A DNA stretch of 41,965 nt from a virus. Below are positions 1,736-9,758 of this stretch, in pieces (positions within the stretch are counted from its first letter, which is position 1; each line of letters starts with the position of its first letter). A program made the position numbers and the translations under genes. The DNA is taken from IMG/VR virus record IMGVR_UViG_3300048912_000043, positions 1 through 41,965 of that record; one strand, 5' to 3'. Below the pieces are notes generated by a model. That model saw only the letters and a program-made list of their open reading frames with translations. It was not told where the DNA came from and ran no database searches.

Positions 1736-2064
1736 TCGCAGGGACCTACGACTTCACCGAGGCCGTCATCGCCGAGGACATCGAATGCGCCAGCCAACAA
1801 GTCCAGCCGAGCGGTGGGCGTGGTGGGAAGCGGCTGTCGCCGGTCTCGACCCGCCAATCCACGCCGACGAGCCGCACGCCGGGTTCTTCAAGGTCCGCCG
1901 CTTCCCATACGGGAAATGGCCAAAGGGTCCGTTCGTCCCCGCCCGCGTCTGGTGGGTACCGGGCGAAGTCGACCCAGCGACCGGAGAACTCCTGTCCGAC
2001 GAAATCTGCCGCGCCGAAGTCGACGGCCGGCCAACAGACCCCTGGAGAGCATGGCCATGGTTAG
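1732..2064 (+). CDS. possible overlapping ORF
   Basis: An open frame starts with GTG in a GTGA overlap with the previous stop, the coupling style used across this genome. Its first 17 residues (before 1785) have normal coding composition. From 1785 on it shares DNA with the better-supported gene in another frame and becomes Ser/Pro/Thr/Arg-rich, as shadow frames often do. It may be a short leader-like gene or spurious. Confidence 0.25.
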   Translation: MIAGTYDFTEAVIAEDIECASQQVQPSGGRGGKRLSPVSTRQSTPTSRTPGSSRSAASHTGNGQRVRSSPPASGGYRAKSTQRPENSCPTKSAAPKSTAGQQTPGEHGHG

Positions 2065-2177
2065 CCGCGAGACCGATCAGCGAGAGCGAGTGGACGTGGT
2101 TGAAGGCGCTAAGCCCGCTTCTGCCAACATCGATACCACCGAAGCCCACGAAGAACCTGCCGCGCCGCGCAGCCTGA
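1785..2177 (+). CDS. Trp-rich phage hypothetical protein
   Basis: 130 residues, ATG start. Strongly Trp/Pro-rich (WAWWEAAVAG, then FPYGKWPKGPFVPARVWW), and it ends in a Pro/Lys/Arg tail. The composition differs from random frames and the N-terminal 95 residues look like a compact domain. The last part overlaps the start of the ERF gene by about 125 bp. I do not recognise a function. Being directly upstream of a recombinase hints at early DNA metabolism. Confidence 0.65.
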   Translation: MRQPTSPAERWAWWEAAVAGLDPPIHADEPHAGFFKVRRFPYGKWPKGPFVPARVWWVPGEVDPATGELLSDEICRAEVDGRPTDPWRAWPWLAARPISESEWTWLKALSPLLPTSIPPKPTKNLPRRAA

Positions 2178-2863
2178 AGCAGCGTCTAGCGGACATTCGC
2201 GACGAATGCGCGGGGATTGGCAAAGAAGACATCAAGATGGAGAAGGACGGCAAGAAGTGGACCATCAAGGGCCACACCGTCGAGGCCATCTTGTCAGAGG
2301 TCCGCCCCCTGCTTTCGAAGCACGGGGTTGACCTCGAACCGACCCTTGTCGAGCGCGCCTACTCCGGCAACCGTTGTGACGTCATCGTAGATTTCACGTT
2401 TGAGCGCACGGACGACAGCGACGAAAAGCGCGTCATCCGCTGGGCTGGTGCGGGTACCGACAACGGCGACAAGGCCTTCGCCAAGGCCGGCACGAACGCC
2501 CTCAAGGAAGTTCTGAAGAAGCGCTTCCTGATCACCGATCGCGATGACGCGAAGGAGGAAGAGGAGCAAGTCGAGCACCAGACCGAAGAAGGCATCAATC
2601 GCGCCGAAATGGAGCGCCAGGCGGAAGCAAAGCGCGCCGCCCTTGAGCTTTGGGCCAAGGCGCTTCGCAATGCGCTGAAGACCGCGAAAACTTTGGAAGA
2701 GGTGCGCGCGCTGGAGCTGGACAACAAGGAGCAACTTCGCTCGCGCGACACACCGGCGGCTACCCGCGAGTTCTTCATCGACCTCATCCAGCAGCGCAAG
2801 AAAGAGTTCGAAGGCGGCCAGGGAGGCGGGGTGGCTGAAGAAGCGCCCTCCGACGTCGACTGA
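2051..2863 (+). CDS. erf: ERF-family single-strand annealing protein
   Basis: 270 residues with the ATG at 2051, preceded by a GGAGAG Shine-Dalgarno. The open frame runs further upstream to 1814, but that extension is a shadow of the previous gene. An ERF-type core runs from about residue 40 to 160: a helix (LKQRLADIRDE), then strands with HGVDLEP and a GTDNGDKAFAKAGTNALKEVL segment typical of ERF proteins. A long charged, helical C-terminal region follows (about 165-250, Glu/Lys/Arg-rich, coiled-coil-like). ERF proteins anneal complementary ssDNA in phage recombination and genome circularisation. The next gene begins in a TGATG overlap. Alternative starts are ATG 2057 and GTG 2090. Confidence 0.82.
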   Translation: MAMVSRETDQRERVDVVEGAKPASANIDTTEAHEEPAAPRSLKQRLADIRDECAGIGKEDIKMEKDGKKWTIKGHTVEAILSEVRPLLSKHGVDLEPTLVERAYSGNRCDVIVDFTFERTDDSDEKRVIRWAGAGTDNGDKAFAKAGTNALKEVLKKRFLITDRDDAKEEEEQVEHQTEEGINRAEMERQAEAKRAALELWAKALRNALKTAKTLEEVRALELDNKEQLRSRDTPAATREFFIDLIQQRKKEFEGGQGGGVAEEAPSDVD

Positions 2864-3312
2864 TGTCCGAGCGCCCCGCCATCATGTGCGTGCGTCGTGG
2901 CGACTTCCTACAGCCGCTTACACCGCTGGACAGTGAGCTGATCCGCGCCCATCCGGCCGGTAAGCCTCTGAAGCTACAGATCACCCAGGCGCGCCGGTCT
3001 GGCCGCCAGATGCGCCTCTACCGCGCCTTCCTGACGCTCGTGGCCGACAACCTGGAAGGCGACGTCACGCCCGATGCGCTCCACGAGTGGATGAAGCTTC
3101 GGCTTGGTCTCGTCGAGGCGGTTCCGTTGCGTTCCGGCCGGGTCGATCTGGTCCCGAAGTCCGTCGCCTTCGACAAGATGGAGCACGGCGAGTTCACAGC
3201 CTTCTTCGCAGGCGTCAAGCGCTTGGTGCTGGAGCAATTGATCCCGCGCGCCAACTGCGAGGCGTTCGAGCGCGAGGCCCTGGCCATGATTGGTGAGGGG
3301 GAGTTCGCATGA
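2863..3312 (+). CDS. DUF1367/NinB-like recombination-associated protein
   Basis: 149 residues; the start overlaps the previous stop in TGATG. The layout matches phage proteins found beside recombination genes: an N-terminal strand region, a conserved-looking ITQARRSGRQMRLYRAF stretch (about residues 46-62), then a KSVAFDKMEHGEF motif (about 103-115) and a C-terminal helix. DUF1367 and NinB-type proteins have this order. Function is likely accessory to recombination; which of the two families it belongs to is uncertain. Confidence 0.6.
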   Translation: MSERPAIMCVRRGDFLQPLTPLDSELIRAHPAGKPLKLQITQARRSGRQMRLYRAFLTLVADNLEGDVTPDALHEWMKLRLGLVEAVPLRSGRVDLVPKSVAFDKMEHGEFTAFFAGVKRLVLEQLIPRANCEAFEREALAMIGEGEFA

Positions 3313-5595: not shown

Positions 5596-5810
5596 CCGGA
5601 CGCTGCGAACGCCAGGGATCGTTCTGCCCCTACTGCGGCTATCGGGCCTGCTTGAAAGCCAAACCAATCATCCCTCGCGCGGCAATCACGCAAACGCCTG
5701 CGAGTGGCAAGGCGGAAGTCGCCACTGTGGCCGAACGTGACAAATCCCGGGAGGAAAACCCCTCTGTTTCGCGCTCACCGGAAGAACGTGAAGGGGTGGA
5801 GCATGGGTAA
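5592..5810 (+). CDS. small protein with N-terminal zinc-knuckle-like motif
   Basis: 72 residues. An N-terminal CPYCGYRAC motif (about 12-20) is followed by a Ser/Glu/Arg-rich, probably disordered tail. ATGA overlap upstream; it ends 8 bp into the methyltransferase gene. These exact overlaps support it as real despite the low-complexity tail. Confidence 0.5.
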   Translation: MTGRCERQGSFCPYCGYRACLKAKPIIPRAAITQTPASGKAEVATVAERDKSREENPSVSRSPEEREGVEHG

Positions 5811-6819
5811 GGGCGTCTACTACAACGAGTTTTCAAAACAGAAGGCGGCCTGGCTGCGCCATCTCATAGAGGAGGGCGCGATTGCCCATGGAGTCGTCGA
5901 CGAGCGCTCGATCACCGAAGTCCAGCCCGAAGACCTCGAAGGCTTCGCGCAATGCCACTTCTTCGCCGGCATCGGCCTCTGGTCCCTCTGCCTCCGCCGC
6001 GCCGGATGGCCTGACGATCGACCTGTTTGGACCGGTTCCTGTCCCTGCGGCCCCTTCAGCAAGGCCGGCCTCCGCCAAGGCTTTGAAGACCCGCGCCACC
6101 TTTGGCCGTTCTGGTTTCCACTCATCCGCAAGTGCCGGCCTGACATCGTCTTTGGTGAGCAGTCTGATGAGGCGGACGCGTGGATCGATCTTGTTCAGTC
6201 TGACATGGAAGGCGACGGCTACGCCCTCGGGACGGCTATTATACCTGCTGCGGGCTTCGACGGAGCGCACGCACGCCACCGAATTGGCTTCGTGGCCGAC
6301 GCCAACAACACCGAGTGGTGGACAGAGCGTGCCCCCTGGAACGACGGTCACTGGCCAAAGGCCGGACGGATCGAAGGCTACCGTGACGCTCGAGATGGCG
6401 GCCAAGGCCTCGGCCTGGCCGACGCCGACGCTAGCGGACAGCAGGAACAGCAGGAATTCAACGGCGCCGGAGCGACCGGAGGGCTCGAAATGGGTTCCGG
6501 GCGTGGCGCTCTGCGATGCGGCTATCCTAGCGGCTTGGGCGACCCCGAAGAAGCACGATGGGATGCGCGGGGGGAGTTTGGGACATATCGACGGTCGGCG
6601 CAGCTGTCTGATGGATCAGGTGTTGTTGACTGGCTCGCCTGCCGAGATAGCCGCTGGCGCCCGATTGAACCCGGCCTTAGCCCGCTGGTTGATGCGGATC
6701 CCACCCGCATGGGACGCCTGCGGGGTTACGGCGATGCCATCGACGTCGAGACGTTCACGCAGCTGATCGCCGCGTATCTCGAGGTCTCTCCCCTCCAATC
6801 CCAGCGAGCAGCAGCATGA
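5803..6819 (+). CDS. C5-cytosine DNA methyltransferase
   Basis: 338 residues from ATG 5803 (GGGGTGGAGC ribosome site upstream); an open extension to 5704 belongs to the previous gene's DNA. Motif I is FFAGIG (53-58). Motif IV has the catalytic cysteine in TGSCPCGPFS (Cys82). The usual ENV motif is altered to FGEQ (117-120). Motif VIII is HARHRIGFVAD (156-166). The C-terminal GYGDAID matches the motif X region. The middle (about 165-290) is Gly/Ala/Asp-rich with repeated ADAN/ADAD/GDPE elements and would be the target-recognition part. The product would methylate cytosine in phage DNA, probably to evade host restriction. It carries a second long frame, listed separately. ATGA overlap downstream. 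Confidence 0.87.
   Translation: MGKGVYYNEFSKQKAAWLRHLIEEGAIAHGVVDERSITEVQPEDLEGFAQCHFFAGIGLWSLCLRRAGWPDDRPVWTGSCPCGPFSKAGLRQGFEDPRHLWPFWFPLIRKCRPDIVFGEQSDEADAWIDLVQSDMEGDGYALGTAIIPAAGFDGAHARHRIGFVADANNTEWWTERAPWNDGHWPKAGRIEGYRDARDGGQGLGLADADASGQQEQQEFNGAGATGGLEMGSGRGALRCGYPSGLGDPEEARWDARGEFGTYRRSAQLSDGSGVVDWLACRDSRWRPIEPGLSPLVDADPTRMGRLRGYGDAIDVETFTQLIAAYLEVSPLQSQRAAA
5888..6766 (+). CDS. overlapping ORF inside the methyltransferase gene (WPTP-repeat protein)
   Basis: A second frame on the same strand is open from TTG 5882 (ATG 5888) to 6766, about 292 residues, almost fully inside the methyltransferase. It contains three spaced motifs (SWPTPTT, AWPTPTL, AWATPKK). Other protein-like features are DLFGPVPVPAAPSARPAS, a SLTWKATATPSGR segment, and a C-terminal ARLNPALARWLMRIPPAW stretch. 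These do not look like a random shadow; from memory, phage proteins with repeated WPTP motifs exist in databases, but I could not check. No ribosome site stands out, so translation is unproven. Confidence 0.4.
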   Translation: MESSTSARSPKSSPKTSKASRNATSSPASASGPSASAAPDGLTIDLFGPVPVPAAPSARPASAKALKTRATFGRSGFHSSASAGLTSSLVSSLMRRTRGSILFSLTWKATATPSGRLLYLLRASTERTHATELASWPTPTTPSGGQSVPPGTTVTGQRPDGSKATVTLEMAAKASAWPTPTLADSRNSRNSTAPERPEGSKWVPGVALCDAAILAAWATPKKHDGMRGGSLGHIDGRRSCLMDQVLLTGSPAEIAAGARLNPALARWLMRIPPAWDACGVTAMPSTSRRSRS

Positions 6820-8303: not shown

Positions 8304-8754
8304 GACCCTGCCCCGCGTCCGGGCGAAGCCTCATCCAGAGGACTGGCCGGACGACGCACCGATGCTCCTCGACGAGTACATCGCCGTGTTCTATCCGCAC
8401 GGCCCCTTGACGACATCCTCGCTTCGAACGGAGATCCGCAAGGGTCGCCTCGCGCCGGCAGAGATCGCCGGAAAGTTCTATATCACGCCCGCCGCCGTGC
8501 GGGCCATGTTCAAGGCCGCGCAATGCCACGCCAAGCCAAAGGGCCTCGCCTCTACCTCCGTGAGGGTCGTATCGAGCCCAGCACCGGAAAGCGACGCGAG
8601 CCCATCTGGGTCATCCGCGATGGATCGCGTGAAGTCAGCACAGGCCTCACTCGCGGCGAGCTTGACGCAGCTCAGCAGCGCCTCGCCCAGTACATCGCCG
8701 AGAAGTGGGCGCCGGTCGCAGGTGGTGACCCTTCCGACCCGAAGAACGTCCTGA
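8296..8754 (+). CDS. xis: excisionase-like HTH protein overlapping the integrase gene
   Basis: 152 residues from ATG 8296 (GGAGGGGATAAGG upstream). The N-terminal 75 residues look like a small winged-helix/excisionase fold: LDEYIAVFYPHGPLTTSSLR, then GRLAPAEIAGKFYITPAAV. The C-terminal 75 residues are Ser/Ala-rich and share DNA with the integrase in another frame (8523-8754). Xis-type proteins bend attachment-site DNA and steer integrase towards excision, and the place directly before int fits. Where translation normally ends is unclear; the Ser-rich tail could be a by-product of the int frame. Confidence 0.65.
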   Translation: MAETLPRVRAKPHPEDWPDDAPMLLDEYIAVFYPHGPLTTSSLRTEIRKGRLAPAEIAGKFYITPAAVRAMFKAAQCHAKPKGLASTSVRVVSSPAPESDASPSGSSAMDRVKSAQASLAASLTQLSSASPSTSPRSGRRSQVVTLPTRRTS

Positions 8755-9758
8755 TCGCCGAAGTCCTAGCGCTCTACGCGCGGGAGAAGGCCCCCACCCT
8801 CGCCGACCCAAAGAGCATCAAGGGTTGGATTCAGAACCTCGCCACGTGGTGGGGTGACAAGACGGTCGCCGACGTGAAGGGCAAGACGTGCCGAGAGTAC
8901 GTCGCCTGGCGCACCTCTCAGCGGATCGCTTCGGGCAAGGGCCTAAGCCTGCGCATGGTGTCTCACCAGACGGCGCGGCGGGAGTTGGAGACGCTGTCCG
9001 GCGCGATCGGCCATTGGCATAAAGAGCATACCCTGACGACCCGCCCTGTGGTCGTGCTCCCCGACAAGCCAGAAAGCCCTAGAGACGCCCTAACGCGCTC
9101 GGAGGCGGCGAGGCTGCTGTTGTCGGCCAAGGGGCGCAAAATCGGCTCTGACGGGTGCTGGCAGGCCACCACGAAGCAAGTGAAAGCCCAACGCCTGCAT
9201 CTCCGCCGCTTCCTGCTGATCGGCCTCTACACCGGAACCCGCGCCAAGGTCATCACCAGCCTGCTCTGGAGCGAGACGCCCAAGCAAGCCTGGGTGGATC
9301 TGGACAAGGGGATGATCTATCGCCGTGGGCGCGAGGAGCGCGATAAGGCGACCAAGCGCCGGCCGGTCGTCCGCATCCCGTCTAGGCTCCTAGCGCACAT
9401 GCGGCGCTGGCGCGAGATGGATCGCCGCAAAGAGGTCGAGCTACGCCGGGAGAACCCAGAGATGCGGATCAACTCGGTCCTGCACTATGGCGGCCAGCCG
9501 ATCGCCACGGACGTTCGCAACGGCTTTGCCTCAATGGTGGCCGACGCTGGCCTTTCCGGTGCCGTGACGCCGCACTGGTTGCGTCACACGGCTGCAACGT
9601 GGCTCATGGAAGGCGGGGCCGATGTTTGGGACGCCTCGGCCTATCTGGGCATGACGGCGGCGACGCTGGAGAAGCACTACGGCCACCATAGGCCCGACCA
9701 CCAGGCCGCCGCCAGACGGGCGATTTCGCGCCAATCTGGGGCGGTTTCTGGGGCGTAA
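8523..9758 (+). CDS. int: tyrosine-family site-specific integrase
   Basis: 411 residues. The N-terminal arm-binding and core-binding domains span about 1-185. In the catalytic domain the visible active-site residues are Arg240 (LYTGTRAKV), His351 and Arg354 (PHWLRHTAATWL), and the nucleophile Tyr386 (EKHYGHH). The length is normal for phage tyrosine recombinases. The start lies inside the excisionase-like gene in another frame. It ends inside the array of 11-bp repeats flanking the tRNA-Val attP, so it should integrate the phage into a host tRNA-Val(UAC) gene. Confidence 0.93.
   Translation: MPRQAKGPRLYLREGRIEPSTGKRREPIWVIRDGSREVSTGLTRGELDAAQQRLAQYIAEKWAPVAGGDPSDPKNVLIAEVLALYAREKAPTLADPKSIKGWIQNLATWWGDKTVADVKGKTCREYVAWRTSQRIASGKGLSLRMVSHQTARRELETLSGAIGHWHKEHTLTTRPVVVLPDKPESPRDALTRSEAARLLLSAKGRKIGSDGCWQATTKQVKAQRLHLRRFLLIGLYTGTRAKVITSLLWSETPKQAWVDLDKGMIYRRGREERDKATKRRPVVRIPSRLLAHMRRWREMDRRKEVELRRENPEMRINSVLHYGGQPIATDVRNGFASMVADAGLSGAVTPHWLRHTAATWLMEGGADVWDASAYLGMTAATLEKHYGHHRPDHQAAARRAISRQSGAVSGA

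Follow-up and report, generated by a model that had tools for sequence, protein, structure and literature searches.

The cytosine methyltransferase gene analysed here carries a second coding sequence in its +1 frame on the same strand, and we consider it very probable that the two encoded polypeptides form a two-chain C5 methyltransferase of the M.EcoHK31I type, with alpha (frame 0) as the catalytic chain and beta (+1 frame) responsible for target recognition and motif IX. In the proposed enzyme alpha would provide motifs I, IV, VI and VIII, continue as an unconstrained linker through the modules and end with motif X. Beta, probably initiated internally within the alpha gene, would provide a short N-terminal segment, one to six WPTP modules (here three) that are likely to recognise the target, and motif IX. 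The two chains would then assemble so that the parts ordered in the DNA as I-VIII, TRD, IX and X make up one enzyme, like M.EcoHK31I. Exchange of modules among phages should change or add target sequences, and the likely benefit would be the shielding of phage DNA from host restriction.

The window is the whole analysed stretch, a virus record (IMGVR_UViG_3300048912_000043) of 41,965 bases. Judged from the integrase (8523-9755), the recombination genes (an Erf-like annealing protein and a NinB/Orf-like mediator, 1814-3312) and the portal, head and terminase genes, which lie on the opposite strand from the methyltransferase, the virus is probably a temperate tailed phage. The methyltransferase occupies the early region, with the recombination genes on one side and the integrase on the other. 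The GC content at the locus is about 64%, and no restriction enzyme was recognised near the gene.

Records of related phages differ in which of the two proteins they show. Both overlapping CDS are annotated in Escherichia phage K1ind2, only beta in Pseudomonas phage PMG1 (as 'DNA methyltransferase'), and only alpha in epsilon15 and N15. In some records beta is named 'Mte8', a name for which no useful description was found in the literature searched. Since annotation pipelines typically retain a single one of the two frames, half of a common phage enzyme goes missing or is listed as 'hypothetical'.

The two overlapping frames and the start of beta

The features of the two frames outside the recognition modules are as follows (all on the plus strand).
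5803..6819: alpha, DNA (cytosine-5) methyltransferase, frame 0, 338 aa plus stop, ATG at 5803
5962-5976: alpha motif I, FAGIG
6046-6048: codon of the catalytic Cys of alpha motif IV, CPC
6154-6162: alpha motif VI, GEQ
6268-6282: alpha motif VIII, HARHR
6283..6612: alpha pass-through region, from motif VIII to WLACRDSRWRPIEPG, where the alpha frame is without purifying selection
6724-6741: alpha motif X, GYGDAI
5888..6766: beta, +1-frame ORF, 292 aa plus stop (6764-6766), ATG at 5888, with TTG 5882 as an alternative start
5870..5876: AGGAGGG, Shine-Dalgarno-like, inside alpha codons 23-25, candidate ribosome-binding site of beta
6046..6292: conserved N-terminal segment of beta, SARPASA.. to LTWKATATPSGR..LRAS, over alpha motifs IV-VIII, with both frames constrained
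6200-6235: LTWKATATPSGR, beta frame

Alpha belongs to the C5 cytosine DNA methyltransferase family (PF00145, E=1.6e-10; phrog_363, E=8.4e-60) and its profile matches M.HhaI (E=3e-17); GTG 5704, if taken as the start, gives a longer ORF. The sequence and the alignment of relatives place the Cys of PC, the Glu of GEQ and the RxR-type motif VIII all in alpha. In the same material no motif-IX-like segment was seen in the alpha frame, and in the alignment of relatives alpha has no conserved sequence of its own from motif VIII to WLxCRDGKWRPVEPG. Motif IV reads PCG in the window and in its relatives L007-L009 instead of the usual PCQ, which is present in the other aligned relatives, and the same clade has GDA rather than GNA in motif X (6724-6741). 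With PCG (6046-6054) and GDA, this particular copy of alpha may or may not be active. In EBPR siphovirus 2 (JF412297, 136-2631) an apparent intein lies in the catalytic motif of alpha, between CPC and QPF; beta is situated downstream of it and is untouched.

A sequence-only reading of the window had described a +1-type frame open for about 292 codons, and this frame indeed runs from ATG 5888 to the stop at 6764-6766. The frame is open from 5870 to 6763, beginning right after the TAG at 5867-5869. A database search with the second frame, which that reading had proposed, returned protein families of its own, phrog_1008 (E=2.8e-25) and phrog_31772 (E=2.4e-13). In relatives the N-terminal segment of beta reads ..STLYKLTWK..TPSGR..LRAS.

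Four observations indicate that the start of beta is likely internal to the alpha gene, while its exact position is not fixed by them. In the window, the AGGAGGG is spaced 5 nt from TTG 5882 and 11 nt from ATG 5888. Among relatives, a beta-frame ATG is present at alpha residue 39 in 105 of 154 cases (48 under the synonymous expectation), and the Shine-Dalgarno pairing at this ATG is stronger than in synonymous shuffles (-5.06 vs -2.52 kcal/mol). In N15 the beta frame opens only at alpha residue 66. Finally, alpha-synonymous constraint begins near alpha residue 82-84, and the first ~55 residues of beta are without constraint of their own. The reduction in alpha-synonymous change anticipated by the sequence-only reading was thus found over the overlap but not across these ~55 residues. 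TTG is enriched at alpha residue 94 (115 vs 33) and Shine-Dalgarno strength at this position is not, and this enrichment may reflect coding constraint rather than a start of beta.

Instead of internal initiation, programmed ribosomal frameshifting could join the N-terminal part of alpha and the +1 frame into a fusion, which we regard as unlikely. Shifts into and out of the +1 frame would give a full enzyme, since the order I-VIII, TRD, IX, X is colinear with that of single-chain enzymes, and the actinophage relatives do switch the selected frame within the module region. However, the constraint on beta starts at about alpha residue 82, upstream of motifs VI and VIII, which such a fusion would lose, and at alpha residue 39 both the start codon and the Shine-Dalgarno pairing exceed the synonymous expectation. 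In addition, no slippery site was recognised in an unsystematic inspection. Internal initiation of beta is the reading adopted below.

WPTP modules, motif IX and the actinophage relatives

The downstream part of beta consists of three modules followed by a constant C-terminus (plus strand).
6293..6415: beta module 1, WPTPTTPSGGQSVPPGTTVTGQRPDGSKATVTLEMAAKASA; alpha reads VADANNTEWWTERAPW...; many relatives carry its family, at ordinal position 1, 2 or 4
6416..6535: beta module 2, WPTPTLADSRNSRNSTAPERPEGSKWVPGVALCDAAILAA; alpha reads LADADASGQQ...; related modules elsewhere have 45-52% identity
6536..6658: beta module 3, WATPKKHDGMRGGSLGHIDGRRSC..., which continues into the constant C-terminus; in alpha this DNA reads LGDPEEARWD...
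6659..6712: beta motif-IX-like segment, ARLNPALARWLMRIPPAW, lying in the DNA just upstream of alpha motif X

All motifs previously listed for the +1 frame are present, with the W of SWPTPTT at 6293, that of AWPTPTL at 6416 and that of AWATPKK at 6536, as well as LTWKATATPSGR and ARLNPALARWLMRIPPAW; the repeated ADAN/ADAD/GDPE attributed to the methyltransferase frame is seen there as VADANN, LADADA and LGDPEE. Beta usually carries one to five WxTP units (six at most), with a median unit of 35 aa, and the window has three. When complete units were grouped, 212 of the 325 fell into 26 families of three or more, and the ordinal position of one family can vary from 1 to 4 between phages. Moreover, 1064 of 1414 ungapped block matches joined shifted positions, and all were in phase. 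A given module yields a near-identical protein in beta and unrelated strings in alpha. True dual coding and insertion of modules, which the sequence-only reading had offered as alternatives, therefore both hold in part: the region is built of ~35-aa cassettes in varied order and constant phase. The WPTP modules are most likely target-recognition elements, and we infer that each of them would recognise one target.

The C-terminal segment ARLNPALARWLMRIPPAW was aligned by hhalign to RLxxxFPEWMMGWPAGW, which is motif IX of single-chain actinophage enzymes, and relatives carry a LNPAHSRWLMGLPPEWD segment at the C-terminus of beta. The beta profile from the WPTP units through the C-terminal segment matched the LPTP units plus motif IX of the actinophages with E=1.7e-8 and a probability of 95.4%. 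In the single-chain enzymes the region matching beta lies in frame between motif VIII and motif X. Thus, the DNA order I-VIII, TRD, IX, X is common to both, and the window's family has the TRD-IX part one frame off. This homology concerns the module and motif-IX part of beta, and the mapping is one of profile alignment, not of structure. The matches of the N-terminal beta profile in actinophages may be a shadow of the conserved alpha core and were left out for this reason. A search of the PDB with the beta profile gave no sequence match.

The resemblance of beta to the TRD and motif IX of single-chain C5 methyltransferases bears on the possibility that beta arose de novo by overprinting and serves an unrelated function, e.g., as a toxin or an inhibitor of host enzymes. 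Many overlapping genes of viruses are known as overprinted novelties whose functions have nothing to do with the older frame. This explanation nevertheless appears very improbable, as alpha has no conserved TRD of its own and beta without an overlapping alpha occurred in none of the 190 loci. A recognition subunit complementing alpha is the reading that we keep.

Some actinophage loci (L185, L187 and L195-L226) have hybrid frames, in which the +1 frame encodes the first TRD modules and frame 0 the later modules and motif IX. Substitutions at the frame-0 positions were 0.303/0.107/0.097 in the +1-frame modules and 0.103/0.082/0.348 in the later modules and motif IX. Of 24 actinophage loci, about half close the +1 ORF with a TAG located 8 nt ahead of the first LPTP codon in frame 0; the context of this TAG is mostly TAGACCTGCT.

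Selection, register and stop codons in relatives

The register of the overlap makes the third codon position of alpha the second of beta, and the first of alpha falls on the wobble position of beta. Differences at alpha four-fold sites were ~0.65 in the alpha-only codons before the constrained part of beta, ~0.2-0.4 in the overlap core from about alpha residue 82, and 0.077 at alpha residues 286-295, and they returned to 0.6-0.68 once beta ended. In the module region, for which rates were taken from the 1414 blocks aligned without gaps, the differences at alpha positions 1/2/3 were 0.431/0.153/0.096, with 0.040 at alpha four-fold sites. The same shift was observed in the modules of the window and its three closest relatives (0.352/0.208/0.193 at alpha positions 1/2/3).

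The substitution classes in the core were NN 0.143, NS 0.217, SN 0.260 and SS 0.603. Purifying selection acts on both frames in the core, as in an overlapping gene pair, and in the modules beta alone is under constraint. In the modules dNN/dNS was 0.20 (beta, strong constraint) and dNN/dSN 1.94 (alpha, no constraint), and dNS/dSS was 1.29 for alpha, the corresponding second value for beta being 0.13; the sequence pairs behind all these rates are not independent, and the values are descriptions rather than exact tests. The contrast in selection is large and shifts where the overlap begins and ends. From motif VIII to the C-terminus of alpha, beta is the selected protein and alpha is unconstrained. 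Neither the nature of beta nor the near-absence of constraint on alpha across the modules had been identified in the sequence-only reading.

These rates also weigh on the explanation that alpha alone is the enzyme, its variable region being a TRD grown by insertion of gcc-gac-type modules and beta being incidental. Insertion and shuffling of modules would fit such a history, and the predicted TRD of M.EcoHK31I is placed in the large subunit (PMC3404938). However, purifying selection is absent from alpha in the module region (1.94; 1.29), where beta is strongly conserved (0.20; 0.13), and a given module spells out nearly the same protein in beta and unrelated strings in alpha. We therefore give this explanation hardly any probability and retain the two-chain enzyme with recognition in beta.

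The overlap itself was followed in 190 loci with a beta HMM match, which came from viral contigs, bacterial genomes and named phages with GC contents from 34% to 73%. Alpha overlaps beta in the same +1 register in all 190. Alpha is contained in one ORF in 186 of these loci and in two ORFs in L001, L039, L144 and L178. In one of the latter, L001 (Pseudomonas phage PMG1; 1286-1423 and 1374-2204), a frame change near the N-terminus splits alpha and leaves beta intact.

Taken alone, the open +1 frame of the window is weak and not compelling evidence, as 9% of the shuffles of alpha synonymous codons had no +1-frame stop either (mean 1.36; P=0.09). The stop test was therefore read from relatives, in loci gathered through alpha (unselected for beta) and between the PC motif and motif X. 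In 78 alpha-selected relatives 1 stop in the +1 frame was observed vs 193.7 expected, and in 37 relatives of a Bacteroides-phage enzyme, where the median GC is 43% and the lowest 34%, there were 17 vs 151.4 expected. All 18 stops are the natural terminator of beta just past the motif-IX-like tail. Hence, premature stops of beta were absent from the 115 alpha-selected loci, in which ~345 were expected, whereas +2-frame stops in the same loci were about as numerous as expected (867 observed vs 723; 677 vs 698). A chance open frame, for which the window alone gave P=0.09, is rejected on the absence of premature stops in the relatives. Interruption of the second frame in relatives with an intact methyltransferase, looked for here as the finding that would speak against dual coding, was not encountered.

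That the +1 frame is an untranslated by-product of high GC and of the codon make-up of alpha, as the ~64% GC of the window and the equally long open frames in 9% of the synonymous shuffles might suggest, is already contradicted by the relatives and has next to no probability, since the 115 loci lacking the ~345 expected premature stops include those of 34-48% GC, the +2 frame is at expectation, the substitutions track the beta frame, and the homologous parts are in frame in single-chain enzymes. With its own protein families, the lack of premature stops, the lowered alpha-synonymous change and the beta-type substitutions, the second frame is well supported as a real coding sequence, i.e., as the true dual coding that the sequence-only reading had considered. 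Few long dual-coding genes on a single strand have been proven in dsDNA phages, and the present case gains its statistical firmness from hundreds of natural sequences.

Comparison with known systems

The existing families that match beta, phrog_1008 and phrog_31772 ('DNA methyltransferase'), are silent on frame, subunit and mechanism, and the literature searched yielded no account of the phage family as a dual-frame enzyme. The breadth of the family, the shuffling of modules in a hidden frame and the frame-switching actinophage intermediates appear to be undescribed in that literature.

The C5 methyltransferases of the Bacillus subtilis phage SPR/phi3T type are multispecific and contain tandem exchangeable modules of ~40 aa with one target each. 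The likeness of the WPTP modules to them is one of general layout, and it differs in that the SPR/phi3T modules are in one frame of one chain. If the WPTP modules set specificity, the protected sequences could be predicted from a frame that is usually unannotated.

The single-chain actinophage enzymes (e.g., Mycobacterium phage Starcevich gp69, L185) share with the present family the catalytic domain, related LPTP modules and motif IX. They differ in that some modules, along with motifs IX and X, share the frame of the catalytic domain; in many of them the +1 frame still holds the first modules. We see an even chance that hundreds of phages hold their specificity in phase-locked +1-frame cassettes for which the alpha frame is a neutral spacer, and that actinophage intermediates, switching frame within the array at a mostly conserved TAG, link single-chain and dual-frame enzymes by a change of frame and not by gene fusion.

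M.EcoHK31I and its isoschizomer M.EaeI are two-polypeptide C5 methyltransferases (YGGCCR), and the small polypeptide of M.EcoHK31I is reportedly encoded within the large gene in another frame. In the 190 loci studied here the second polypeptide likewise lies in another frame inside the first gene. According to PMC3404938, which cites Lee, Kam and Shaw 1995, the large polypeptide of M.EcoHK31I has motifs I-VIII and X and the small one has motif IX, and the same division between the first and the second chain is seen here; this likeness is one of described layout. In contrast, the predicted TRD of M.EcoHK31I is on the large subunit, whereas selection places the recognition modules here in beta. 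Furthermore, M.EcoHK31I is part of a restriction-modification system, unlike the phage gene with no restriction enzyme recognised beside it. A sequence search for M.EcoHK31I in plasmids turned up nothing but copies that were prophage-like or decayed and lacked a restriction gene, and one search of E. coli genomes gave 3 weak matches. The gene pairs on the Klebsiella aerogenes plasmid LR134256.1 (L279) and the Citrobacter amalonaticus plasmid NZ_CP083652.1 (L280) are apparently decayed; their matches are in pieces or without an annotated gene, and no restriction enzyme is annotated nearby. M.EcoHK31I has already been used for targeted methylation tools (PMC3439449), for which the modular and naturally split layout of the phage enzyme could be useful.

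M.AquI likewise distributes the catalytic part and the TRD/IX part over two chains (PMC3404938). However, it is cut in linear order, its small subunit comprising the distal variable region and motifs IX-X, whereas in the present pair alpha retains motif X and the two genes share their DNA in different frames. The locus likely joins a known but rarely recognised kind of split methyltransferase, here with a modular specificity subunit in a hidden frame.
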